Shown here one piece after another: positions 23,272 to 36,988 of a stretch of 64,000 bases of DNA; the stretch's first letter is position 1; every line of letters starts with the position of its first letter. Below the pieces are notes generated by a model that saw only the letters and a program-made list of their open reading frames with translations, was not told the DNA's origin and did no database searches. Origin of the DNA: Opitutaceae bacterium (GTDB lineage: Bacteria; Verrucomicrobiota; Verrucomicrobiia; Opitutales; Opitutaceae); contig JABTUS010000002.1 of assembly GCA_015075305.1 (NCBI GenBank), positions 248,001 to 312,000 on the forward strand, given 5' to 3'. The position numbers were made by a program, and so were the translations under genes.

Positions 23272-25542
23272 TCAGAGTTGTGTCACAGCGCGGCCCTTCG
23301 AAGAGCCGGCGGCGTCGGCGCGCGACGAAATTTCCGCAAGCGCATCCAGCACCTTTCCTCCAGTGAGCAGCTCAGGCAGCACGACGGGGTCCTTCAACGC
23401 GGGCGCATAGATCAAATTGAACGGAACCGCCGAACGGTTCCATTTGGCGAGCTCCTGGGTGATCTTTGGATCCTTGTTGGTCCAGTCGGCCTTGAAGAGA
23501 ACCACATCGCGTTTGCCAAACTCCGACAGCACATCCTTCGAATTGAACACGGTCGCCTTGTTGGTCTGGCAGGTCGCGCACCAGCGTGCGGTGAAATCGA
23601 CGTAGGCAAACTTGCCTGCAGCCTGTGCGGAGGCGACCGCCTCAGGACTCCACTTTTCCCAGACAACACGGTAGCCCGCATTCGCGGCACCTGCAGCCTG
23701 TGCGTTCATGGAACGGGGCCAACCGAGCCAGACACCGCCGACCAGAAGCGCAGCGGCGGCAACTCCGCCGACAATGCGACGCGCGGCCTTGCCATGCGGC
23801 TGGGCAAATCTTCCGTACGCCCACCCGGCCATCGCGATGAGCACAAAAGCAAACACGATCATCAGAAGCGCGTTTTCATCCGCCGCGGTCTGCGCGGCAA
23901 GCACCCAGAGGAGCCAGGCCACCGTCGCGTAGAGCGGGAACGCCATGAGCTGCTTGAATGTCTCCATCCAGGCGCCGGGCCGCGGAAGGATTTTCGTGGC
24001 CTGGGGGAAAATCGAAAGGAGCAGGTAGGGCAGCGCCAGGCCGAGCGCGATGGCCGTGAAGACGAGAAGCGATTCGACAGGCGCCAGCGCGAGGGCCACT
24101 CCCAGCGCAGGCGCAAGGAACGGCGCACTGCATGGGGTGGCCACAAGGGTCGCGAGCATGCCCGTGAAGAAGGATCCGCTGAGGCCCTCCTTGCTTTGCA
24201 GTCCGGACCCCGCACCGGTTGCAGAGAGACCGACTTCAAAAAGTCCGCTCAGGTTGAGCGCAAAAATCAGCAGGAAAACAGCCATGCCGAAAACAAAGGC
24301 GGGGGATTGCAGTTGAAAGCCCCACCCGAGCTGTTCGCCGCCCGCACGCAGAGCCAGCAGCAAACCCGCGAGCGCCCAAAACGAGAAAAGCACACCCGCG
24401 GAAAAAACCAGCCCGTGCTGCACGACCTTCGCCTTGTTGCTGCCCGACTGATTGACGAAACCGAGCACCTTGATGCCGAGGACCGGAAACACACAGGGCA
24501 TGAGGTTCAGCACGAGACCTCCCATGAAGGCGAGAAACAGCGTGCCCGCCAGCCCCGCACCTCCACCTGCGCCGGTCGCCGAGCCAGAAACGCCACCGCC
24601 TGCCGCGCCGCCACCCGAGGGAGGAGAACCGGCATTTGTCACAGCCACCCCAGCCGCGCCAGTCGACGATGCGGCCTTGTCGGTCGAAAATGGAACGTTC
24701 ACCAGGATTCCCGCTGGTCCTCCCGATGCGGCCTGCCAGCCATTCTTCGCGGTCAGTATTCCCGTGAGCACCCTGGCGTCCGCCGGGGAATCAGGCCCCG
24801 TGGACATTTCAATCTGATACCTGCCATTCTCCGCTTTCACGGTTTGCGGAGCCGAGTAGTCGACGACTCCCACATCATCGAAGAAATGAATTTCCCCGGG
24901 GGCATGCGTTGTTCCCGACGGCGGAGTCACCGTGAGTGAAACCTTGCCGCCCTGCTTCGTCGCATGAAACGCCCAGCCCTCAATCGCGCGCGGCAGGGCG
25001 CGGAACGCGGCGTCAAATTCCGCGGCGATCGCCGATTTCGCGGACGATTTTTCCGCGGTGACCGGCAGGTTCAGTTTCACCGCACCGTCGCCGGGCATGC
25101 AGGACGCCTCGCACATGAGCCATTCGACAGTCGCAGCCAGCGTGGCGGTCGTGCCCGGCTTCGCATCGGCGGGCACCGCAATCTCGGTGAACAGGAACGT
25201 CCGTCCTTCGTATCCATTTCCTGTTACAGCGCCGTTCGCGTCCTTCACGGTGTGCGGCACGGGCCAGACGATTTCACCCGCCTTGTAGCCTTCCGGCAGT
25301 TTCCAGGTGATCGAGGTGGGATAACCCGTGCCGGCGACCTTCCAGTAGGAATGCCAGTGCGGATCGTGATCCAGCTTCACCGCAACCCAGATCGACTTGC
25401 CGGGCTGCACGGAGGTCTCCGCCGACACAAGTTCGACCTGGACCGCGCCGTTGCGAACCGGCTGGGCGCTGAGCTGGAGCGACGAAAAGAGAATGAAGAG
25501 CGCGGGAAGGAGAAGGCCCGCGAGGGTGGATTTCGGGTTCAT
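23272..25542 (-). CDS. DsbD/ScsB-type thiol:disulfide reductase
   Basis: About 756 residues. After a signal peptide comes a periplasmic DsbD-alpha-like domain with a CEASC pair at residues 144-148. A glycine-rich linker (about 310-330) leads to the eight-helix DsbD core with LMPCVFPVLGIKVLGF and ATPCSAPFLAPALG, the paired membrane cysteines. A C-terminal thioredoxin domain carries CATC near residue 655 (FTARWCATCQTNK). The protein moves electrons from cytoplasmic thioredoxin to periplasmic targets. The gene follows a cysteine synthase gene by 28 bases on the same strand, so sulfur and thiol functions are grouped. It may also feed the five-thioredoxin protein encoded nearby, but that is inference. 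Confidence 0.92.
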   Translation of the reverse strand: MNPKSTLAGLLLPALFILFSSLQLSAQPVRNGAVQVELVSAETSVQPGKSIWVAVKLDHDPHWHSYWKVAGTGYPTSITWKLPEGYKAGEIVWPVPHTVKDANGAVTGNGYEGRTFLFTEIAVPADAKPGTTATLAATVEWLMCEASCMPGDGAVKLNLPVTAEKSSAKSAIAAEFDAAFRALPRAIEGWAFHATKQGGKVSLTVTPPSGTTHAPGEIHFFDDVGVVDYSAPQTVKAENGRYQIEMSTGPDSPADARVLTGILTAKNGWQAASGGPAGILVNVPFSTDKAASSTGAAGVAVTNAGSPPSGGGAAGGGVSGSATGAGGGAGLAGTLFLAFMGGLVLNLMPCVFPVLGIKVLGFVNQSGSNKAKVVQHGLVFSAGVLFSFWALAGLLLALRAGGEQLGWGFQLQSPAFVFGMAVFLLIFALNLSGLFEVGLSATGAGSGLQSKEGLSGSFFTGMLATLVATPCSAPFLAPALGVALALAPVESLLVFTAIALGLALPYLLLSIFPQATKILPRPGAWMETFKQLMAFPLYATVAWLLWVLAAQTAADENALLMIVFAFVLIAMAGWAYGRFAQPHGKAARRIVGGVAAAALLVGGVWLGWPRSMNAQAAGAANAGYRVVWEKWSPEAVASAQAAGKFAYVDFTARWCATCQTNKATVFNSKDVLSEFGKRDVVLFKADWTNKDPKITQELAKWNRSAVPFNLIYAPALKDPVVLPELLTGGKVLDALAEISSRADAAGSSKGRAVTQL

Positions 25543-25570
25543 GACAGTAAATCGAGCGCGCAAATGAGCA

Positions 25571-26620
25571 TCATCGCATCAGTTCCACGCTAGCCGGTTT
25601 CGCCTCCGATACAAGAGGGGCGGCAAAAAGCTTCGTCGAATAGTATCGCTCCGCCCGGTCGCACAAAATCGTAACAACCCGTGAACCTTCAGGCAATTGG
25701 GCGGCGGTCCGCAGGGCGGCAATGATGTTTGCCCCGGATGAGGTCCCAACCAATAGCCCAAACTCGGAGGCCAGCCGGCGTGTCATTGCAATCGCATCGG
25801 CGCTGGCCACCTTTTCCTTGGCGTCGATTGCCAGTCCCTTGATCAACGGGGGAATATATCCGCCGGCAACGCCTTCAATATTGTGACAGCAAGGCGACTC
25901 CCCCGACAGCATCGCCGCCTCCGCCGGCTCCATCGCCACGATTCTCACGCGCGGATTGCGGGCTCGCAGGGCGCGACTCACGCCATTGATGGTGCCGCCC
26001 GTTCCATACCCGGAGACAAACGCATCCACCCGCCCACCCATCTGCGAAAGGATTTCACGACCGGTGTGATCGACATGATCCTGCGCATTCAGCGGATTCT
26101 CAAACTGCCGGGGCAGAAAATACCGGTCATCCTCCTTCGCCATGGCCTCCGAAATCTCGATCCCCGTCACATAACCGCGTGTCGCGGAAAACAACTGCAG
26201 CTCAGCTCCGAAATGCCGCATCAGGTGCCGTCGTTCGATGCTCGCCGTGTCCGACATCAGAATCCTCACCCTGACTCCCAGAAGCGCGCCCACCATTGCG
26301 AGCGCAATGCCGGTGTTCCCGCTTGTGCACTCGAGGACCGTGGTGTCAGGCCGCAGCAGACCACGGCGCCGGGCATCTCCGAGAATCATCAGCGCAAGGC
26401 GATCCTTGATCGACCCACTTGGGTTCAGGTACTCGCATTTTACATGCAAGGTGATCCCTTCCGCACGGAAATGAAGCGGGATCAGCGGTGTGTTGCCAAT
26501 AAGAGACAGGACGGGTGGCAGCACATCTTCCGCTCGAGGCAGCGGGGCTCTCGCACTCGGTCGCCTGCCACGGACTGCACGGACAGCCGCAAGGCGTGAA
26601 GAGGTTGGGTTGCTCGCCAT
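25571..26620 (-). CDS. Cysteine synthase family protein (PLP-dependent)
   Basis: About 349 residues of the tryptophan-synthase-beta/cysteine synthase fold. The PLP lysine lies in NPSGSIKDRLAL, the substrate-binding loop is TSGNTGIALA, and the phosphate-binding glycine loop is GYGTGGTINGV. These make O-acetylserine sulfhydrylase (CysK/CysM) the best guess, but cystathionine-beta-synthase-like and related ammonia lyases share the motifs. ATG 26620 is chosen; the extended frame from 26683 adds a non-homologous tail. Upstream of the DsbD-like gene on the same strand. Confidence 0.83.
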   Translation of the reverse strand: MASNPTSSRLAAVRAVRGRRPSARAPLPRAEDVLPPVLSLIGNTPLIPLHFRAEGITLHVKCEYLNPSGSIKDRLALMILGDARRRGLLRPDTTVLECTSGNTGIALAMVGALLGVRVRILMSDTASIERRHLMRHFGAELQLFSATRGYVTGIEISEAMAKEDDRYFLPRQFENPLNAQDHVDHTGREILSQMGGRVDAFVSGYGTGGTINGVSRALRARNPRVRIVAMEPAEAAMLSGESPCCHNIEGVAGGYIPPLIKGLAIDAKEKVASADAIAMTRRLASEFGLLVGTSSGANIIAALRTAAQLPEGSRVVTILCDRAERYYSTKLFAAPLVSEAKPASVELMR

Positions 26621-26783
26621 AGCCGCCTGTATACCATGCCACAAACGCGCTTCCAATAGGTCAAAAGGAGGAAACAGCATCAATCCCGCGAGTTGTTACC
26701 GTCGGCCTATTCGACAGTTCGCCGGGCTGTGCTAACGTGGCACCTTGTTCTTTTCGAACGACACATCCCTGAATCTCCAACCC

Positions 26784-29700
26784 ATGAAATTATCGCTCTT
26801 GCCGATTCTCATTCTCGCAGCGGCAGGCACGGCCGTCGCAGGATTTGCCCAGACGGCTGACACAGTCGCCCCGTCCTCCGCACCGAGTTCGGCGCGTTCA
26901 CTCCTCAAGCCGGGTGACCCCGCCCCCGACTTCGCGGTTGTCGGCCCCGACGGCAGGACGATCAAGCTGTCCGATTTCCGCGGCAAGATGGTCCTCGTGG
27001 ACATCTGGGCGACCTGGTGCGGACCGTGCGTCGCCTCGATGCCGCACAACAGCGAGATCGCGAAAAAATTCGCCAAGGACGATCTTGTCGTCCTCGCCGT
27101 CTGCACCGATGACAGCCGCGAAAACTACGACGGGTGGGTGAAACGCAATGCGTCCAAGTACGCGTTCCTCACCGCGCACGACACCGCAGGCAAGGACAAC
27201 TGGGACCGGTCCATCTTCAACACCGAGTATCGCGTCTCCGGTTTCCCCACGCTCTTCCTCATCGATCGCAACGGACGCCTTGTCGGGCAAACCTCCGGCG
27301 GCGGCAACGCCGAGAATCCCTACCTGACGCGCCTGCTCGCGAAGGGTGGAATTCCCATCGACACCTCCCACCTGCCACCTGAACCGACGGGCGGACCCAA
27401 ATCCATTCCCGCCATGACCAAGACCATGGCCATGGGCATGGGCGCACCCGCGCAGGCGACCGCCGCAGGGGCAAGTCCAACAGCGCGCTTTGCCTCGATG
27501 GCCGCCGGCACGATGGTTCCCGATTTCACCATGCTCGATCTCTCGGGCCGCGAGGTGAAGCTCTCCTCGCTGCGCGGAAAACCGACATTCATCGCATTCT
27601 GGACCAACCTGCGCGCGCCCGCTGACGATGTCGCCAGGATCTACTCCGCATACAAGGACAAGGGACTCCAGGTGATCGGCATCAACACGGGCACCGACAA
27701 CGCAGAGTTCGCAAAGTGGCACGCTCAGAACAGCAGCGCCATCCCCTTCCCAGTCTACTCGGATCCTGCAGGCAAGGCACCGATGGAGAGCATCTCCTAC
27801 ATGACCTTCGGCGCAGGCATGTACCCCGCCTATGCCATGATCGACAGCGCCGGCAAACTCGTTGGCGGCACGATCGGCATGGGTCCCAAGGTCAGCGGTC
27901 TGCTCCGCGATCTGGTAAAGAACGCCGGCATTGCACTCACAGCCGCCGACCAGGAATTGCTCGCCGCCGCAGTCAAGGAAACCGCTCCAGCGATGCGGGC
28001 CGCCACGATCAAGCCCGGCCCCGCCCCCAGCGGCGGCATGACTGCCGCACGGCCTGCGACACTCGAAGCCGGCGCCATCGCCCCGGACTTCCTCATGAAG
28101 ACTGTCGATGATCGCGACGTCCGTCTCTCCGATTTCAAGGGGAAGATCGTCATCCTCGACTTCTGGGCCACCTGGTGCGGACCGTGCATCGCCTCGTTTC
28201 CGCATACACAAAAAATCGCCGAAAAATACAAGTCGCAGGATGTCGTCGTCCTCGCCTCCGGCACGAGCGACAAGATCGATCAGTTCAAGAAATGGATCCC
28301 GGCGCATCAGTCGAAGTACCCCGACATCCAGTTCACCTTTGATCCCAACGAACGCGGCTCCGCGACGGAGGCCGAGCGCGCCTCGGCCAAGCTTTACCAT
28401 GTGGTCGGCATTCCGACCCAGTTCATCATTGGCCGCGACGGCAGGATCGCGGCCGTTGTTGTCGGCAACGGCGGCGAAAGCGACGCCCGCACCGAAACCG
28501 CGCTCGCCAGCCTCGGCGTCAAGGTTGATGCCACAGTTGTCGAAAAAGGCAGGCAGCAGATCAAGGAAGCCGAAGAGCGCGAGGCGGCGATGCGCGAGCA
28601 GGCAAAGACTCCACGTCCGCCATTCTTTGAAAACTACGGCAAACTCAAGGCCGGCGAAATTCCCCCTGCGATAAATGTCATCACCGCCGATGGTCAGACG
28701 AAACAACTTTCCGATATCACCGCGGGCAAGGTTGCGGTCATCGGACTCTGGAACGCGGGCATGGGCCCCCCTCAGCCGATGCGCGAACTCTGGAACTCCT
28801 GGGGCGGCGCCTACAAGGACGAGAACGTGACCTTCCTCGGGATCGGCGCCTTTGATTCACGCGAGAATTTCGACGATTGGGTTTCAAAGAACTCGGGGAA
28901 CATCTCATTCCCGGTTGTTTTCGACCCGGCCGGCAAGCCGCCGCGTCCCGACAAGGACTACGCCGATCTCACGGACGAGGAAAAGGGCGCCTTCGCGGCC
29001 AAGAGTCGTGAACACATGCAGAAGGTCATTCCCATGCTCATGGGTGGCGTCATCACCCCGATCCCCTCCGGAATGGTCCTCGACGCCAAAGGCAGGCTCG
29101 TCGGCTGGTTTGCCGGATACGGCGAGCCCACCCCCGATGCCATCGCCAACCTGCTCCTTCGGGCCGGTGTCAAACTCAAGCCCGAACACACGCCCGCCAG
29201 GATCTGGACCGCCGAGGAAACCAAGCCGCCGGCACCCGAGGCGCGCAAAGGAACCATTGCCATCGGAGCAATGGCTCCCGACTTCCTCACCACAACGGTC
29301 GACGGCAAAGCGATCCGCATTTCCGACTACAAGGGCAAGGTGCTCATCCTTGATTTCTGGGCGACTTGGTGCGGACCCTGCATGAGCGCCATGCCCCACA
29401 CCCAGGAGGTCGCCGCCAAGTACAAGGACCAGGGCGTCGTTGTCCTTGGTTCCTGCACGAGCGACACGCGGGCCGCGTTTGAACGCTGGGTGAAGGCCAA
29501 TCAGGAAAAGTACCCGGACATCGTCTGGAGCCACGACAAGGAGGAGCGCGGACCGAAGCGGGCCTCGTTCGATCTCTACGGTGTATCCGGAATTCCCACA
29601 CAGTTTATCATCAACCGCGATGGAAAGATCGTCGACATCGTGGTCGGCTACATGCAGGGCGAGGCCATCCTCGATGCAGCCCTGGCCAAGGCTGGCGTCT

Positions 29701-29816
29701 CCGTCGACCCCGCCCTCATCGCGAAGGGCGCAGCTGACTTGAAGCGTCGCGCAGTGCTTTCGGGTGAGGCTCCCATTCCCGCGAAAGCTCTCGTCGCGCC
29801 AAAAGCCGGGGATTGA
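26784..29816 (+). CDS. Secreted protein with five tandem thioredoxin-like domains
   Basis: The protein has about 1010 residues with a signal peptide (LLPILILAAAGTAVAGFA). Five TlpA/redoxin-like domains follow in tandem at about 41-190, 238-385, 428-580, 621-797 and 826-972. Domains 1, 3 and 5 hold intact WCGPC at residues 78-82, 464-468 and 862-866 with cis-proline motifs (SGFPTLF, VGIPTQF, SGIPTQF). Domains 2 and 4 keep the fold pattern but have no CXXC: domain 2 has WTNLRAP near 273 and domain 4 has WNAGMGPP near 656. Such single domains usually reduce periplasmic disulfides. A five-fold array with alternating CXXC-containing and CXXC-less domains is unusual. ATG 26784 is the first that gives a signal peptide. 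The stop overlaps the LuxR gene start. Confidence 0.9.
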   Translation: MKLSLLPILILAAAGTAVAGFAQTADTVAPSSAPSSARSLLKPGDPAPDFAVVGPDGRTIKLSDFRGKMVLVDIWATWCGPCVASMPHNSEIAKKFAKDDLVVLAVCTDDSRENYDGWVKRNASKYAFLTAHDTAGKDNWDRSIFNTEYRVSGFPTLFLIDRNGRLVGQTSGGGNAENPYLTRLLAKGGIPIDTSHLPPEPTGGPKSIPAMTKTMAMGMGAPAQATAAGASPTARFASMAAGTMVPDFTMLDLSGREVKLSSLRGKPTFIAFWTNLRAPADDVARIYSAYKDKGLQVIGINTGTDNAEFAKWHAQNSSAIPFPVYSDPAGKAPMESISYMTFGAGMYPAYAMIDSAGKLVGGTIGMGPKVSGLLRDLVKNAGIALTAADQELLAAAVKETAPAMRAATIKPGPAPSGGMTAARPATLEAGAIAPDFLMKTVDDRDVRLSDFKGKIVILDFWATWCGPCIASFPHTQKIAEKYKSQDVVVLASGTSDKIDQFKKWIPAHQSKYPDIQFTFDPNERGSATEAERASAKLYHVVGIPTQFIIGRDGRIAAVVVGNGGESDARTETALASLGVKVDATVVEKGRQQIKEAEEREAAMREQAKTPRPPFFENYGKLKAGEIPPAINVITADGQTKQLSDITAGKVAVIGLWNAGMGPPQPMRELWNSWGGAYKDENVTFLGIGAFDSRENFDDWVSKNSGNISFPVVFDPAGKPPRPDKDYADLTDEEKGAFAAKSREHMQKVIPMLMGGVITPIPSGMVLDAKGRLVGWFAGYGEPTPDAIANLLLRAGVKLKPEHTPARIWTAEETKPPAPEARKGTIAIGAMAPDFLTTTVDGKAIRISDYKGKVLILDFWATWCGPCMSAMPHTQEVAAKYKDQGVVVLGSCTSDTRAAFERWVKANQEKYPDIVWSHDKEERGPKRASFDLYGVSGIPTQFIINRDGKIVDIVVGYMQGEAILDAALAKAGVSVDPALIAKGAADLKRRAVLSGEAPIPAKALVAPKAGD

Positions 29817-31054
29817 GTCAGCGACGGTTGTTTGCAAGCATTCGTGCCGAGGTGAAAAGGAAGAAGGCATCACCCGGCACGAAATCCCCCGCGATCGAGG
29901 TCCGCGATCGCTCTCCGCATCTGGACGATCCGGCGCTGCAGCGCCTCATCGTCGACATGCAGGTCGCCGCCAGCATCCCCGAACTCTGGAAGGCGCTGCA
30001 CCGCCTGCTTCAGCAGGCGATTCCCAACCATCACTCGACGACGCTCTTTCTCGATGCGATGGAGCGCAATCCCGGCGCGCTGACCCTGCATTCGCAGCCT
30101 TCGCGCAAACCGCCCGATTGGTGGAAGGCCAGGGCCCGGCTCTCACCCACGCACGCCTGGCTCGACGCCCATCCGGGGGTCAAGCTCTACAGCCTGGACG
30201 ACGTCGTTCCCGACCGGGTTGCGCTGAAAAACAGCGACTTCTACCGCCACGTCCTCATTCCCGAGGGCTGGGACAAGCTGCTGGGCCTCACCCTCTGGCA
30301 GCAGGGCGAACGCAAGAGCATCCTCTGCCTGCGCCGCGCGATGAATCAGCCCGCATTCAACGACGGCGAGAAGGCGCTGATGCTGGAGATCCATCCCTTT
30401 CTCGACCGCAATCTGCGGCGGCTGGAAAAACACGAGGAGGAGGTTGTCGCGCGCAACAGCCTGCAGCAGTTCATCAATCTCCTCCCCCAGGGCATCCTGC
30501 TGATCAATGCCCGTCACGAACTCGTGTTTGCGAATCACCAGGCCTTTGAGGCCTGCGCGGTCTGGAACCACGGCGCAACGGCGGCGCGCCAGCTCAACGG
30601 CCGCGCCGTCTTTGCCGTGCCACCCGCCTTCATCGAGGTCTACCACGAACTGATGTCGCACCACTACGCGACCGCCCTGGCCGATCCCGACGGACATCAT
30701 CCCGCGGAAAAGCGCCGGCTTGTCCATCCGACGCTGAAACACATGCAGGCGGACCTGTCGCTTTTCTCCCTCGATGACCCGCTGCTCTCGCGTCCGAATC
30801 TTTTCGCCCAGATCATCAACCGGGAGTCGCTGAACCCCTCTGTGCCGGAGACCATGGACCGCCAGTTGACGGTCCTCGCGAGCCTGACCCAGCGCGAAAA
30901 GGAGGTCGCCCTCCTCGTGCGCGACGGCCTCAGCAACGACGAGATCGCCCAGCGCCTGTCAAAGGGCGTGGGCACCGTGAAGAACCAGCTGCAGTCGATC
31001 TTCGGAAAACTCGAGATCGACTCGCGGGCCAAACTGATCTCGCTGCTGCGATAG
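29813..31054 (+). CDS. LuxR-type HTH transcriptional regulator
   Basis: The 413-residue protein has a C-terminal LuxR helix-turn-helix (LTQREKEVALLVRDGLSNDEIAQRLSKGVGTVKNQLQSIF) preceded by about 340 residues with a possible GAF/PAS-like sensor region (FINLLPQGILLINARHELVFANHQAF). There is no receiver domain, so the input is probably a ligand or protein. The frame begins with TTG at 29813, which overlaps the stop of the five-thioredoxin gene by four bases (TTGA), suggesting translational coupling. An in-frame GTG at 29852 and ATG at 29957 are alternatives. The coupling implies it may regulate its upstream partner or the convergent TonB receptor. Confidence 0.8.
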   Translation: MSQRRLFASIRAEVKRKKASPGTKSPAIEVRDRSPHLDDPALQRLIVDMQVAASIPELWKALHRLLQQAIPNHHSTTLFLDAMERNPGALTLHSQPSRKPPDWWKARARLSPTHAWLDAHPGVKLYSLDDVVPDRVALKNSDFYRHVLIPEGWDKLLGLTLWQQGERKSILCLRRAMNQPAFNDGEKALMLEIHPFLDRNLRRLEKHEEEVVARNSLQQFINLLPQGILLINARHELVFANHQAFEACAVWNHGATAARQLNGRAVFAVPPAFIEVYHELMSHHYATALADPDGHHPAEKRRLVHPTLKHMQADLSLFSLDDPLLSRPNLFAQIINRESLNPSVPETMDRQLTVLASLTQREKEVALLVRDGLSNDEIAQRLSKGVGTVKNQLQSIFGKLEIDSRAKLISLLR

Positions 31055-31097
31055 TTGGACGGCAGCGGCGCTCGCCGCCACCGTCAACAGACTTTCA

Positions 31098-34052
31098 TCA
31101 GAACGGCAGACGGAAGGACAACTCGTACGACCGGCCCAGCACCAGATTGCTGTGAAGGGCTCCATTGTAGCCGAACGCCGTATCCGAGAACGGCGGCTCC
31201 TTGTCGAAGAGGTTGCTGATGCCGCCGCTCAAGACCAGCCCCTTGCCGTACCCCCGCCAGACCCCCTTCGGGAAACGATAGCTGCCGCGGATATCGACCC
31301 TGATCACCGCCGGAGTGGGCAGATATCGGATGGCGCTGTTGTTGGCGACAAACGTATTGCCAGTCAGGTTGGTCTCGAATCCATCGATGTAATTCACGAA
31401 GAGCGAACCGCTCAGGGGACCCCGGTCCCACAGCAACGAGCCGAGAAAGCGCCACTTGGGAGGAGCGCCCGTGTCGTCCTCAAGAATCACCGGAGGCTGG
31501 CCTGGAGCCAGGGTCTTTTGATTCTTCAGCGTGCGCGAGGCGCTGCCCGACAACCGCCATCTGCCGAGCCGTTCATACGGCACGGCATAGTCCACACGAA
31601 GGTCGAGGGAGTCGGCCAGGATGCTCCCAAAGTTGACGAAAGTGGTGTCGATGGAGGTCAATCGTCCCGGTTGGTTCAGCGCGATGTCCTCGGGTGCCGC
31701 GGGTGCGCGAACGATGCGGTCCTGGAACAAGGCTTCATTGTTGACCAGCGTGGTTGCCGAAAGGCGCTGCAGCGCGTTCTTCTGCTCGATGCGCGTGTAA
31801 TTGACCTCAAACGTAAGCCCTTTCACAACCGGCGGCTCGAAGACGAGTCCGTATTTCTCGGTGGTGGAAGTCTCAGGCCCCATGTTGGGTGCCGAACCCG
31901 AGCTCACTTGAACATTGGGTGTTGATGCCGGGGTGCGCCGCGGATCGACAACGGTCGAATTCGATACAGTCGGTGCAATCTGATATTCGGTAAGAAACGG
32001 AACGCGGAAGCCTTCAGAGTAACTTGCCCTCAGAAGCAGCGATTGCGCAGGCACCCATGCAATCCCGTACTTTGGCACAAACTTGGTATACTGTTCATGA
32101 TCCTCGTACCGGCCCGCAATCTGCAACTCCAGCCTGCGAAGCAGCGGGGCAGCGTTGGGCTTGCCGAAAACCGGAACTGACAGTTCGGAAAATGCGGCGA
32201 TCGTATCCCGCGATCCCCCCACCTGGGTTCTCAATGGCACCGGCGTCACAGCCTCACGGGTGTTGACCGAGATGTTTTCATTCTCCTCCTTGTAGAAACT
32301 GCTTCCCACGGCCATCTTGATCGGACCGCCGGGCAGCCGGTAGAGATCCCCATCCGCCGAGACATCCACCTGCTGTTCGGTCGAATCGGAATTCACGGTG
32401 TTGTAGAGCGCCATTGCCTCATAAATAGCCGCCTGCTTGTTACCCGCCACTCGGGCATCCAGGAAGGGATTCAGGCGAAGCGAGAGATCCGGATTCGCCA
32501 ATGCCGCCGTGATGGCCGCCCCGTTGAACAAACGCGTGGATTTGTCCATCTTGTAGTTCTGCCAGGAATAGGAGGCATCCCATTGCCAGGTGTCTCCAAA
32601 CGTCCCGCGCATGCCGATCGAGCTCAGAAGAGTCTTGCTGTGCGTCTTCTGGCTCGCTGGGCCAAACTCGTAGTGGACCATTCCAACGAGCACATCCTGG
32701 CCAAACGGGTTGTAAGGATTCGCCACACCGTTGATCGTTGCAGGGACAACCGTCGAATAGTTTCCAAATCCGCTAAACGCCGAAGCCGAGGACACGCCAG
32801 GCTGAGATTCGAACAATCCGCGCACATCCGCGTAACTTACCTTGCCGTAAAGTTCGACCGAACGCTTGAACTTGTAGGTGAAGTTTCCCGCAAAATTGTA
32901 CCTTTCAGACTCAGGAATGATATCGATGAATTCCGCCGTATTGCCCCGGACAAGACCCGACGCGCTGTTGAGATTGCTGGGGGGGGATGCCGTAAAGTTT
33001 GACAAGACAGGATTGCCGGTGATGCCGTCCCGCACCAATGCGAAGCGGGCTGGCGTTCCATCAGGAAGAAAGAAATTCGTCAGGTTTCCCGTGCGCGCCT
33101 GAACAACACCGGGATAGCCCCAATTTAACCGCAGATCCCGTCCCTGAGAAGGAGCCCCCGTGGAAACCAATGTTCCGGCGACAGTTCCGCGATGGTCCTG
33201 GTTCTTGGAGAAAGACCGCTGCGACGCTTTTAGATCCGCGCGGCTGTAGTAGTCCGCACTCAGCACCACCTGAAGCCGGCCCTTGGAAAAGCCCGAAGTG
33301 ACATTGGCGAAACGCTCATGTCCGCCGCCGTGAAATGCCCCGCGGTAGGATCCGCTGATCTCCGTGCCGGTCCAGTTCTTCTTGAGGATGATGTTGACGA
33401 CACCACCGACGGCGTCGGCTCCATAGAGCGCGGACGATCCATCCGTGATCACCTCAACCCGCTCGATCATGCCGAAGGGAATGCCGTTGAGATCGACAAA
33501 GCCCTGACGGGAGTCAGATGACTGATTGCCCTCACCTGACTTGACCATTCGGCGCCCGTCGACCAGCACCAGGGTCGACCCGGCGCCGAGTCCTGAAAGG
33601 CTGATGCCCGAGACACCCGTCTGCCCGGGAGGCGCGGACGACGCGCCTGTCACAAAGTTTATCGCTGGCGAAGTCGTTTCCGTCCGCTGCCCGAATTCCG
33701 GATTGAATTCGTTCGGGGTCGATCCTCGGCCCGAACTGATGCCCGTGTAGTTCTGCGGAAGGAAATTGAAGAAGTCCGCCAGGGTCATCGCTCCGGTGGC
33801 GTCGATGTAGGACCGGTCATAGACGATCACCGGGGAAGGCCCCTCCACATCGGGCCTGCGTATCCGGGAGCCCAATACGCGCATTTCCTCGAGTTCGGTC
33901 GCCTTGACCAGCTTCTCGGCCTCAACGGTCTGGGTTCGCATGCGAGGCAGATCCTCGGCATCGCCAGGCTTGGAAGGCGTGGATTGCGCGTGGACTGCAC
34001 TCCCCAGCAGCAGGACCGCGAGGGAGCGCCGGAAGATTGATTTTGAGTTCAT
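31098..34052 (-). CDS. TonB-dependent receptor, large
   Basis: About 984 residues with a signal peptide (FRRSLAVLLLGSAVHA), a plug domain with LVLVDGRRM and IERVEVITDGSSALYGADAVGGVVNII, and a long barrel ending in phenylalanine (YELSFRLPF). The SRIRRPDVEGPSPVIVYDRSYIDATGAMTLADFFNFLPQN segment at the plug start is like that of sugar-type TonB receptors common in Verrucomicrobiota and Xanthomonadota. No SusD partner or glycoside hydrolase is adjacent, so the ligand is unknown. ATG 34052 gives the signal peptide; an ATG at 34064 is possible. It is convergent with the LuxR regulator. Confidence 0.88.
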   Translation of the reverse strand: MNSKSIFRRSLAVLLLGSAVHAQSTPSKPGDAEDLPRMRTQTVEAEKLVKATELEEMRVLGSRIRRPDVEGPSPVIVYDRSYIDATGAMTLADFFNFLPQNYTGISSGRGSTPNEFNPEFGQRTETTSPAINFVTGASSAPPGQTGVSGISLSGLGAGSTLVLVDGRRMVKSGEGNQSSDSRQGFVDLNGIPFGMIERVEVITDGSSALYGADAVGGVVNIILKKNWTGTEISGSYRGAFHGGGHERFANVTSGFSKGRLQVVLSADYYSRADLKASQRSFSKNQDHRGTVAGTLVSTGAPSQGRDLRLNWGYPGVVQARTGNLTNFFLPDGTPARFALVRDGITGNPVLSNFTASPPSNLNSASGLVRGNTAEFIDIIPESERYNFAGNFTYKFKRSVELYGKVSYADVRGLFESQPGVSSASAFSGFGNYSTVVPATINGVANPYNPFGQDVLVGMVHYEFGPASQKTHSKTLLSSIGMRGTFGDTWQWDASYSWQNYKMDKSTRLFNGAAITAALANPDLSLRLNPFLDARVAGNKQAAIYEAMALYNTVNSDSTEQQVDVSADGDLYRLPGGPIKMAVGSSFYKEENENISVNTREAVTPVPLRTQVGGSRDTIAAFSELSVPVFGKPNAAPLLRRLELQIAGRYEDHEQYTKFVPKYGIAWVPAQSLLLRASYSEGFRVPFLTEYQIAPTVSNSTVVDPRRTPASTPNVQVSSGSAPNMGPETSTTEKYGLVFEPPVVKGLTFEVNYTRIEQKNALQRLSATTLVNNEALFQDRIVRAPAAPEDIALNQPGRLTSIDTTFVNFGSILADSLDLRVDYAVPYERLGRWRLSGSASRTLKNQKTLAPGQPPVILEDDTGAPPKWRFLGSLLWDRGPLSGSLFVNYIDGFETNLTGNTFVANNSAIRYLPTPAVIRVDIRGSYRFPKGVWRGYGKGLVLSGGISNLFDKEPPFSDTAFGYNGALHSNLVLGRSYELSFRLPF

Positions 34053-34361
34053 GGTGTATTGCATGGTCTGTTGTGTTGCTCGTCGTTTGGGTGACAAAGA
34101 AATGGGATGATCACTTTGACCGAGGTCGAGCGCCGGTCCACCGCGATTGTGGAGTGATCAGGCTTGGGGACGTGGGTGCCACACGACCATTCTCCTGCAT
34201 CAATTGTGGGTGAGGTGGATTGCAAAGACAGGCCAGCGTCTGCGCGGCGTTGCTTTCATCCTACGCGACCCGCGGCAGGGTCATCCATAGGTCAAAAGGC
34301 CTAATCCGATTCGATTCCAACAACACTCCTCCAATCCCGCATCGAAGAATATCGGAAATTT
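34053..34361. other. Leader region of the large TonB receptor gene
   Basis: No coding sequence. On the minus strand this is the upstream region of the TonB receptor. It contains an 8-base inverted repeat TGATCACT (34108-34115) and AGTGATCA (34153-34160) with a 37-base spacer, which could be a regulator site or part of a leader structure. I see no convincing riboswitch or tRNA. Confidence 0.35.
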
Positions 34362-35318
34362 CTACCCCTTGCGCACCCCCACCATCAGCAGGACATTTGC
34401 AGCCGTGATCAGTCCGCCCCCCACAAGCAAGCGGGAGGTCAGCGTTTCATTGGCATAGTCCACGCCCGCCAATGCCGACAACCACGCTGGAAGAAAAAGC
34501 GCCATCATCGCTCCAAATATGGGCTCAATGCAGTAAATGAGCCCGGCCTCGGTCGCCGTGATCTTCGGCTGCCAGGCGTTCATGAGGCCGTAGGCGGCCA
34601 CCGTGCACACAAGCGTCAGCACCACCGTGAACAGCCACCAGGGCGCTGACGTCACCAGCTCTCCAATCGACGTCGCATCGGAAGCCATGACAAGCACCAT
34701 GCCCGTCAGCACGAGACTCATGGTGGCATACATCACGAGAGAGATCCGCTCCGGCCGATTCGCCGCATACTCCGGTTTCTCCAGCCAGAGGATCTGACCG
34801 GCGAAGAAAAGCGATCCCAGCATCGTCTCCCATTCTCCGCGCCCGAAATGAAGCGACCTCAGATCGAAGTCTCCAAGAATGCACACCCCCACGATCACAA
34901 GCATCACGCTGATCCACATCGCCGTCCCCGGATTCGTGCGCGTCCGCACCATCAGGTAAACGGGGATGAACACCACGTAGAGCTGCGTGAGAAACGCCGA
35001 CGTGCTGGCCGATGTGAACTGCAGGGCGTCGCTCTGGCATATCATGCCCGCCGATGAAAAAAGTCCGATCACCCCGCCTTGAACGATTTCATCGCGCGTG
35101 CACCGCAGCGTTCCGGATCGGACGACCTGCCACACCGCCAGCAGCAGTGCCGCGAGCATGAAGCGCGGCATCAGCACCATCGACGCAATGAACCAGGTGT
35201 CGCTGCCCGGTAGCAGCCGCCCATGCAGGAACGCCAGTCCCTTCACCAGAGGAAAACTGACGCCCCAGCAGGCCGTCGCCAGAATCAGGAGGAAAAACGC
35301 TCGTGAACGGGTGGACAT
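34362..35318 (-). CDS. DMT superfamily transporter (EamA)
   Basis: About 318 residues with ten membrane helices. The first begins AFFLLILATACWGVSFPLVKGLAFL, with the CWG.SFP entry motif of EamA exporters. The second repeat begins LGSLFFAGQILWLEKPEY and holds ITATEAGLIYCIEPIFGAMMALF, the EA..Y.IEP motif. It presumably exports a metabolite; substrate unknown. ATG 35318 is preferred to the longer frame from 35366, whose added residues are polar. Divergent from the polyphosphate phosphotransferase gene; a strong palindrome lies between them. Confidence 0.87.
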   Translation of the reverse strand: MSTRSRAFFLLILATACWGVSFPLVKGLAFLHGRLLPGSDTWFIASMVLMPRFMLAALLLAVWQVVRSGTLRCTRDEIVQGGVIGLFSSAGMICQSDALQFTSASTSAFLTQLYVVFIPVYLMVRTRTNPGTAMWISVMLVIVGVCILGDFDLRSLHFGRGEWETMLGSLFFAGQILWLEKPEYAANRPERISLVMYATMSLVLTGMVLVMASDATSIGELVTSAPWWLFTVVLTLVCTVAAYGLMNAWQPKITATEAGLIYCIEPIFGAMMALFLPAWLSALAGVDYANETLTSRLLVGGGLITAANVLLMVGVRKG

Positions 35319-35432
35319 GGAGGGAAAAAAGGATTCAGAGCGAACTTCGAAGGATTCGCAGCGCATCGGTTCGCACCCGCCGACGCAATCACCATGCGGC
35401 CGGTGATGCCGCCGTGCCAGACTGCCGCCGCG

Positions 35433-35463
35433 GCAAGTTCATGAACTTGCGAGCCCCGGCTCG
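35433..35463. promoter_or_regulatory. Two adjacent palindromes between divergent genes
   Basis: GCAAGTTCATGAACTTGC at 35433-35450 is a perfect 18-base palindrome. It is followed immediately by CGAGCC (35450-35455) and GGCTCG (35458-35463), a second perfect pair with a 2-base centre. They lie between the DMT gene and the phosphotransferase ATG at 35498, so they may be an operator serving both, or a dispersed repeat. Confidence 0.5.
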
Positions 35464-35497
35464 ACAAACGCCAACCGGACGCGTTGCCTGTTCCTCC

Positions 35498-36988
35498 ATG
35501 GCCAGACCACGCGCATCCAACGGCCGTCTCGGCAGGAAAGAGTATGAACGCGCCCTCCCGTCGCTTCGCGAACAGCTCGTGCAACTGCAGGTTCAACTCA
35601 AGGAACGCAACGCCAAGGTTATTCTGATCGTCGCGGGCGTGGATGGAGCCGGGCGCGGCGATGTCCTCAACACTCTCGGCGAATGGCTCGATCCGCGCGG
35701 AGTCGAAACCTTCTATTTCCATTCCCCGACCGACGAGGAACGTGAGCGTCCGCTGCTCTGGCGCTTCTGGCGCCGCCTGCCCGCGCACGGGCGCATCGGC
35801 ATCTTCGCGAGTTCCTGGTACACTGAGGCCCTGCATGAGGAGGTCAGCAACAAGCGTGAACAGGCCGTGCTCCAGAAGGAGCTGAAGGGCATCCGCCACT
35901 TCGAAAAACTGCTCTCCGACAACGGCACCCTCATCATCAAGGTCTGGCTGCACATTTCACGGGAGGCCCAGGCCGCGCGGCTGCGCAGCCTCGAAAGCGA
36001 CCCCGACACCGCATGGCGCGTGACCGAGGACAACTGGCGCGCTCACAAGCACTATGACCGGCTAGCACGCACCGCACGCATCATCGTCGAGGGAACCGAC
36101 TCCCCCGGCGCCCCGTGGACGGTCATGGACGCAACCGACGCCCGTTCGCGCAATCTCGCCGTCGGCTCCCTTCTGGTCCGGCGCTTCCAGTCTCACCTGC
36201 GCCGCCTTTCCGCACGCAGCGCCCTCGCAACGCGTCCTGCGCAGCATCCACGATCGCTCGCCCCCGCAGGCCGCCGCCGCCTGATGAGGCTCCGGCTCGA
36301 CCAGGCGTTGTCGGAGGAGGAGTACGAGCGGAAACGGGAGAAATGGCTCGGGCGCCTCAACCGCAGCCTGCGCGCGCTGCAGGGCGCGCGACGCTCCGTC
36401 GTCTTTGTCTTCGAGGGCTGGGACGCCGCAGGAAAAGGCGGCGCCATCCGCCGGCTCGCCAGCGCGATGGACGTCCGCAACTACCGCGTTGTCCCCGTTT
36501 CCAAACCCACCGATGAGGAAAAGGCCCATCACTACCTCTGGCGCTTCTGGCGTCATGTGCCGCGCGACGGCTTTGTCACCATCTTCGACCGCTCCTGGTA
36601 CGGCCGCGTGCTGGTCGAGCGGCTCGAAGGCTTCGCGCGTCCGGACGAATGGAAACGAGCCTTCAAGGAGCTCAATGAATTTGAGGAGCAGCTCACCAGC
36701 CACGGCAGCCTCGTTGTGAAGTTCTGGATGCACATTTCAAAGGAGGAGCAGCTCCGGCGTTTTCGCGCCCGGGAGCACACGCCGTACAAACTTCACAAGA
36801 TCAACGCCGAGGACTGGCGCAACAGGCGCAAGTGGAGCGCCTATGAAACAGCGGCGGGCGACATGCTCGCGCTGACCAGCACGCACTACGCCCCCTGGCA
36901 CATCATCCCGTCCAACAACAAGCGGTACGCCCGCCTGCAGATCCTGAAGACCGCCTGCAAGGTGATCGAGAACGAGCTCGGGAAATAG
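35498..36988 (+). CDS. pap: Polyphosphate:AMP phosphotransferase (double PPK2)
   Basis: About 496 residues made of two PPK2 domains. The C-terminal one (about 265-496) has a full Walker A (EGWDAAGKGGAIRR, about 305-318), FDRSWYGRVLVERLEGFA and the lid region. The N-terminal one (about 20-250) has GVDGAGRGDVLN, in which the Walker lysine is replaced by arginine, and SSWYTEAL in place of RSWYGRV. This matches characterised PAPs in which only the second domain is catalytic. The enzyme makes ADP from AMP and polyphosphate, linking phosphate storage to energy state. The frame is open from 35303; ATG 35498 fits the first helix, though 35441 is possible. Divergent from the DMT gene. Confidence 0.87.
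   Translation: MARPRASNGRLGRKEYERALPSLREQLVQLQVQLKERNAKVILIVAGVDGAGRGDVLNTLGEWLDPRGVETFYFHSPTDEERERPLLWRFWRRLPAHGRIGIFASSWYTEALHEEVSNKREQAVLQKELKGIRHFEKLLSDNGTLIIKVWLHISREAQAARLRSLESDPDTAWRVTEDNWRAHKHYDRLARTARIIVEGTDSPGAPWTVMDATDARSRNLAVGSLLVRRFQSHLRRLSARSALATRPAQHPRSLAPAGRRRLMRLRLDQALSEEEYERKREKWLGRLNRSLRALQGARRSVVFVFEGWDAAGKGGAIRRLASAMDVRNYRVVPVSKPTDEEKAHHYLWRFWRHVPRDGFVTIFDRSWYGRVLVERLEGFARPDEWKRAFKELNEFEEQLTSHGSLVVKFWMHISKEEQLRRFRAREHTPYKLHKINAEDWRNRRKWSAYETAAGDMLALTSTHYAPWHIIPSNNKRYARLQILKTACKVIENELGK

Follow-up and report, generated by a model that had tools for sequence, protein, structure and literature searches.

A five-domain thioredoxin-like array with alternating catalytic and cysteine-free domains in Opitutaceae, a candidate envelope thiol-disulfide reductase

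In the 64,000-nucleotide window analyzed here (positions 248,001 to 312,000 of the forward strand of contig JABTUS010000002.1, Opitutaceae bacterium assembly GCA_015075305.1; all coordinates are those of the window), the gene at 26784..29816 encodes a chain of five thioredoxin-like domains in which three domains carrying CGPC active sites (D1, D3 and D5) alternate with two that are free of cysteine (D2 and D4). The domain make-up, the alternation of two domain types, the fixed loss of cysteines, the purifying selection and the conservation of neighboring genes were observed directly. We propose that the protein acts as an envelope thiol-disulfide reductase, its three CGPC heads carried on flexible linkers and set apart by two non-catalytic thioredoxin-fold modules. 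We put the probability of this reading at about 0.55, a value that covers jointly the duplication of a two-domain unit, DsbD as the electron donor, substrates linked to a TonB-dependent receptor, and a holding and spacing role for the cysteine-free modules. Literature searches turned up no description of the layout, as the initial annotation of this DNA had supposed, nor of an Opitutaceae reducing module associated with DsbD and a TonB receptor.

The gene and its parts are listed below, with domain boundaries assigned by hand and with the classes and types of the domain trees described further on.

26784..29816, + strand: five-domain thioredoxin-like array gene, ATG at 26784, stop ending at 29816, 1010 amino acids
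26895..27368, + strand: D1, residues 38-195, class A, type I
27018-27029, + strand: CGPC of D1, residues 79-82; D1 has the additional Cys107
27495..27959, + strand: D2, residues 238-392, class b, type II, zero cysteines, cis-proline retained
27600-27620, + strand: WTNLRAP of D2, in place of the active-site motif
28071..28568, + strand: D3, residues 430-595, class C, type I
28176-28187, + strand: CGPC of D3, residues 465-468
28647..29213, + strand: D4, residues 622-810, class d, type II, zero cysteines
28749-28772, + strand: WNAGMGPP of D4, in place of the active-site motif
28938..29048, + strand: insertion region of D4, ahead of the cis-proline loop, predicted to be partly helical
29226..29738, + strand: D5, residues 815-985, class E, type I
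29370-29381, + strand: CGPC of D5, residues 863-866; D5 has the additional Cys891

The Pfam family AhpC-TSA matches five separate stretches along the whole protein, and the N-terminus, judged by eye, resembles a Sec signal peptide that lacks a lipobox cysteine; the initial annotation, which had read a secreted protein of about 1010 residues with five TlpA/redoxin-like domains, thus holds, and so do the motifs it gave for domains 1, 3 and 5 (WCGPC) and for the cysteine-less domains 2 and 4. The protein has eight cysteines, six of them in the CGPC motifs and the others at C107 and C891, and there is none in D2, D4 or the linkers. D1, D3 and D5 combine the thioredoxin fold, the WCxxC motif and the cis-proline of ResA/TlpA-like oxidoreductases. 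The nearest solved relatives of the array domains are ResA, Etrx and DsbE-type reductases, and the NCBIfam ResA model PRK03147 scores 310.2 against a cut-off of 170, a score that adds up several domains. The third cysteine of D1 and D5 follows the central strand (VCTDD at 27099-27113 and SCTSD at 29451-29465); by class it is found in 30 of 54 A, 19 of 19 x and 74 of 78 E domains and in just 7 of 78 C domains.

D2 and D4 are without the catalytic CXXC pair and, by profile and model, are relatives of the thioredoxin fold, as had been claimed for them. Their sequence profiles match ResA and related solved structures, with best E values of 4e-15 for D2 and 9e-8 for D4. Two results count against the assignment of D4: by itself it stays under the Pfam cut-off (Redoxin, E 0.0077), and in a fold comparison the listed matches lay nearly all over D5, leaving D4 barely tested; the call for D4 relies on sequence profiles and predicted secondary structure. 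In a model of D4-D5 (mean predicted local distance difference test score, pLDDT, 88; predicted template modeling score, pTM, 0.65) strands and helices follow the same order in both domains, with additional helices in D4. The full-length model (mean pLDDT 73.4, pTM 0.32, linkers below pLDDT 50) would be compatible with an array of flexible beads, the relative placement of which, including any common face of D2 and D4, it does not predict.

The array family was matched in 70 of 252 Opitutaceae genomes (E 1e-60 or better), spanning 16 of 49 genera. All matches in a class-level sample (11 of 384 genomes) and in a phylum-level sample searched with D4-D5 (10 of 387 at E 1e-35) belong to Opitutaceae. 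Loci are cited below by L numbers; the close relatives L009-L015 carry the labels Opitutaceae, Opitutus, Opitutae or Verrucomicrobia. Within its own genome the whole protein scores 2300 bits to itself and 69 bits to the next match. A distant two-domain protein resembling d-E, with a first domain lacking CXXC, was seen on a contig labeled Candidatus Kuenenia (L016, 2129-3421), which may reflect a binning error or a wider distribution of the family.

Domains were labeled by tree group, A, b, C, d and E for the groups of D1 to D5 and x for extra domains. Architectures and alternation were counted in uncut loci, that is, those in which no contig end cuts the array, leaving out 19 duplicate loci as well as open frames with no domain reaching 120 bits. 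The order A-b-C-d-E, which the initial annotation had proposed looking for in related genomes, is present in 32 uncut loci, each from a different genome, the locus of the window included. The other uncut architectures are C-d-E (12), d-E (11), E alone (6), A-b-C-x (5), C-x (5), A-b-C-x-C-d-E (3) and A-b-x-C-d-E (3), the remaining ones occurring once or twice each; A-C-d-E, without D2, was found at 2 loci, one of them cut by a contig end. Within a single protein, two inactive domains among five would land on positions 2 and 4 with a chance of 1 in 10, yet the recurrence of the same five-class order argues that the layout is more than chance, and we rejected a chance origin. A chimera or sequencing artefact was likewise rejected, as relatives at 50-83% identity retain both the frame and the order. 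At L131, L134, L135, L136 and L139 the array is divided over two adjoining genes, A-b-C-x beside C-d-E, and an M16-peptidase-like gene lies at these loci as well.

Underlying the domain classes are two domain types. A first tree, without an outgroup, was built from 360 domains after dropping identical copies and domains below 90 bits or 130 residues, and splits the family into type I (A, C and E) and type II (b, x and d) with support 0.99. Trees with an outgroup were built from 14 randomly drawn domains of each class, a set of named domains and 37 of 88 outside domains. When the 13 active-site columns were removed and two long-branch tips left out, type I formed a clade at 98.5/99 and type II at 98/98; with the active-site columns, type II was recovered at 99.9/100. 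The cis-proline is retained in all counted domains (357, as 3 of the 360 fell outside the counted groups). CXXC is present in 209 of 210 type I domains (54/54 A, 77/78 C, 78/78 E), and within type II in 19/19 x domains, 0/57 b and 0/70 d; CGPC specifically, a motif of the reducing type, occurs in 54/54 A, 74/78 C, 19/19 x and 78/78 E. Cysteine loss is thus restricted to type II, with one exception, a class C domain with WSAPC at L154 (4007-5884) that leaves two consecutive domains without a CXXC pair.

Types I and II alternate in 56 of the 62 uncut proteins with at least three domains, the other six being A-b-x-C-d-E (3), A-b-x-C, A-C-d-E and one with unplaced domains. Strict alternation of active and inactive classes is seen in just 47 of the 62. 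The initial annotation had taken strict alternation as a sign of selection, to be abandoned should homologues carry varied numbers of domains with no alternation. What stands is that the cysteine-free state is fixed and constrained and that the two types alternate; strictness does not, since relatives have one to seven domains per protein and x-bearing arrays have catalytic domains side by side, which fulfils the first part of that condition. The alternation itself more likely arose through duplication of a two-domain unit than as a selected pattern in its own right. Such a unit, a catalytic type I domain followed by a type II domain, would have been duplicated to give (I-II)(I-II)I.

The type II cysteines would then have been lost in the D2 line and in the D4 line, the sister class x remaining catalytic. 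The distance from the DP motif to the cis-proline is 20-24 residues in classes A, b, C and E (median 21 in b), with medians of 30 in x and 48 in d, and in class d it is 47-50 residues in 70 of 70 domains. Domain 4 of L157, which occupies the D4 position, has CGPC together with the greater part of the D4 insertion, its DP motif and cis-proline being 45 residues apart; its sequence suggests that the insertion arose before the cysteines were lost, and D4 probably lost them late. In the first tree and in the outgroup tree without active-site columns x groups with D4 and D2 stands apart; with the active-site columns D2 and D4 are joined (98.8/94). From the graded insertion, two losses are favored over one, though not proved. 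One family therefore displays a series from a catalytic domain (x) through a catalytic domain with most of the insertion (L157) to a cysteine-free domain with the insertion (D4), which makes the role of cysteine-free thioredoxin domains, known from protein disulfide isomerase (PDI), testable in bacteria.

In both classes the cysteine-free state is under purifying selection. The ratio of nonsynonymous to synonymous substitution rates (dN/dS) against the same-genus relatives L089 and L090 is 0.10-0.11 for D2, 0.13-0.15 for D4 and 0.05-0.10 for D1, D3 and D5. The more distant relative L092 gives 0.18 for D2, 0.17 for D4 and 0.12-0.14 for D3 and D5 (D1 was unscored), and the D2-D3 linker gives 0.30-0.61. 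A doubtful alternative sees in D2 and D4 catalytic domains that have decayed, serve solely as folded spacers for the redox domains and bind nothing. It would account for the free variation of the former active-site loop, for the faster evolution of D2 and D4 relative to the catalytic domains (one comparison being nearly tied), and for the absence of D2 from some relatives, namely A-C-d-E and C-d-E. Yet the values of 0.10-0.18, together with the retained fold and cis-proline, indicate that D2 and D4 are not simply decaying, and the uniform insertion of class d and its strongly conserved NLLLRAG stretch exceed what a spacer needs. Of the 70 class d domains, moreover, 68 have a class E domain directly behind them, and one of the other two is cut by a contig end. 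Within the reductase we propose, the type II modules would both bind substrates or partners and keep the heads spaced; binding or docking is their most likely role, at about even odds, and spacing the next.

The genes flanking the array are the following.

23272..25563, - strand: DsbD-like transmembrane disulfide reductase (DsbD_N, DsbD_TM, Thioredoxin_7), proposed electron source
25571..26683, - strand: cysteine-synthase-like pyridoxal phosphate enzyme, matched in 22 of 87 related loci
29813..31054, + strand: LuxR-type regulator, its listed TTG start overlapping the array stop, matched in 16 of 87 related loci
31098..34097, - strand: TonB-dependent receptor, matched in 59 of 87 related loci

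Three ResA-like CGPC heads with a DsbD gene nearby suggest a reductase fed by DsbD. The DsbD gene lies 1.2 kb from the array gene and is the sole DsbD_TM match of its genome. Among the 51 genomes in which the place of DsbD is listed, this genome included, 30 have it within 20 kb of an array gene; by a rough estimate chance would give about 1% per genome, related genomes not being independent. DsbD would hand cytoplasmic electrons to the TlpA/ResA-like catalytic heads, which would reduce disulfides of periplasmic substrates, probably material handled with the neighboring TonB receptor.

Neighbor counts come from a translated search, as picking the longest open frames had taken some antisense frames as genes, and the 87 related loci include some with single-domain relatives or fragments alone. 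Among loci with long flanks the receptor was matched in 21 of 27, and among the remainder in 38 of 60, some of these matches being weak; it reaches at least 400 summed bits in 50 of the 87, and in 22 it is found upstream, on the same strand and less than 400 bp away. As the next-best relative of this receptor in its own genome scores just 237 bits, the high-scoring neighbors elsewhere look orthologous, whereas the weak matches may be chance, since receptors are common in the genome (84 receptor plug matches). The matches of the array protein in its own genome fall into 10 loci, 5 of them no more than 1.5 kb from a receptor (p 0.002 in a binomial test, on an estimated background of 10.7% and a cut-off picked after the places were known). 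Among the five next-best receptors of the genome, a TlpA-like gene directly adjoins three (L220, L221, L222) and not the other two (L225, L226); a further pair, L223, was picked because a TlpA-like match lay there. At L220-L223 the TlpA-like gene is directly beside the receptor gene on the same strand; the L220 frame, of 646 amino acids, combines two CXXC thioredoxin domains with long additional segments, and at L223 one domain match without a CXXC of its own resembles the latter half of a domain that is split.

Genes resembling FecR, extracytoplasmic function (ECF) sigma factors and M16 peptidases recur at some loci, named by sequence inspection and not by family search. The recurrent receptors together with the M16 peptidases suggest imported peptides or proteins as substrates. 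The receptor itself we considered an unlikely redox substrate, as 41 of 48 receptor frames longer than 800 residues have zero or one cysteine (none in 27, one in 14, two to five in 7).

Several observations weigh against the reductase reading as set out above. DsbD lies on another contig or more than 20 kb away in 21 of the 51 genomes, a further 19 of the 70 array genomes went unscored for this distance, and DsbD was matched in 235 of the 252 genomes, with or without the array, as a core gene would be. The array gene, DsbD and the receptor of the window lie on differing strands and do not form one transcription unit. With the active-site columns kept, 36 of the 37 outside domains branch among the type I classes (88.9/90), making type I less sure as a clade, and without those columns the monophyly of the array family is weak (73.6/53). 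The approximately unbiased (AU) test did not reject a single cysteine loss common to b and d (p 0.40). To these are added the faster evolution of D2 and D4 and the drift of their former active-site loop, which suits spacers equally as binders.

Finally, two DsbA-family matches in the genome make an oxidizing pathway possible and speak for a bacterial counterpart of PDI, acting on envelope proteins as an oxidase or isomerase, in place of a reductase. We regard this as quite improbable, as eukaryotic PDI active sites are CGHC and those of the array CGPC, as no DsbB or VKOR match was found in the genome, and as the nearness of DsbD points toward reduction. Nor is it probable that the array is a reductase dedicated to one process, be it cytochrome c maturation, the role of ResA and CcmG, or the regeneration of a peroxidase or methionine sulfoxide reductase. 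The solved relatives named above and the PRK03147 score agree with such a role; but the named recurrent neighbor groups (receptor, DsbD, FecR, cysteine synthase, LuxR, M16, EamA and ECF, several smaller groups being unnamed) contain no gene of this kind, and 70 of 252 genomes are fewer than a core process would show.

Among known systems, the ResA/TlpA/CcmG-type oxidoreductases share the fold, the WCGPC-type active site and the cis-proline with the array; their best solved representatives match over one domain, whereas the array has five in one chain, two of them cysteine-free. Eukaryotic PDI (a-b-b'-a') likewise joins catalytic and cysteine-free thioredoxin-fold domains within one protein of the secretory pathway, and by this analogy a role of D2 and D4 like that of the PDI b domains is plausible. 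The array differs from it in having CGPC at all three sites, in its linkage to DsbD and in its A-b-C-d-E order, which is active-inactive-active-inactive-active. The TlpA-like genes at L220-L223 resemble the array gene in adjoining receptors related to that of the window and differ in their CXXC domains and long N-terminal parts. In the pneumococcal model, CcdA proteins, relatives of the membrane part of DsbD, reduce Etrx1 and Etrx2, and the Etrx1/Etrx2-CcdA-MsrAB2 system is similar in that a donor of the CcdA/DsbD type is genetically linked to ResA-like extracytoplasmic thioredoxins; the Etrx proteins are separate surface lipoproteins with a different partner and, in the parts of that account available to us, are described with no cysteine-free domains (PMC3914529).

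The array points to a reducing module of Opitutaceae with links to DsbD and to a TonB receptor. A bolder and rather unlikely extension is a thiol relay crossing the periplasm, in which catalytic beads spaced by docking modules would pass reducing power on from DsbD in the inner membrane to a TonB receptor in the outer membrane, where disulfide-bonded material coming in would be opened for import and digestion. If true, the number of domains would tune the reach or the substrate range.

A promoter scan of 26500-31300 found no sigma-70-like site and was uninformative. Farther along the window, on the + strand at 35303-36988, is an open frame of 561 amino acids that by eye resembles a polyphosphate kinase 2 with two repeats.
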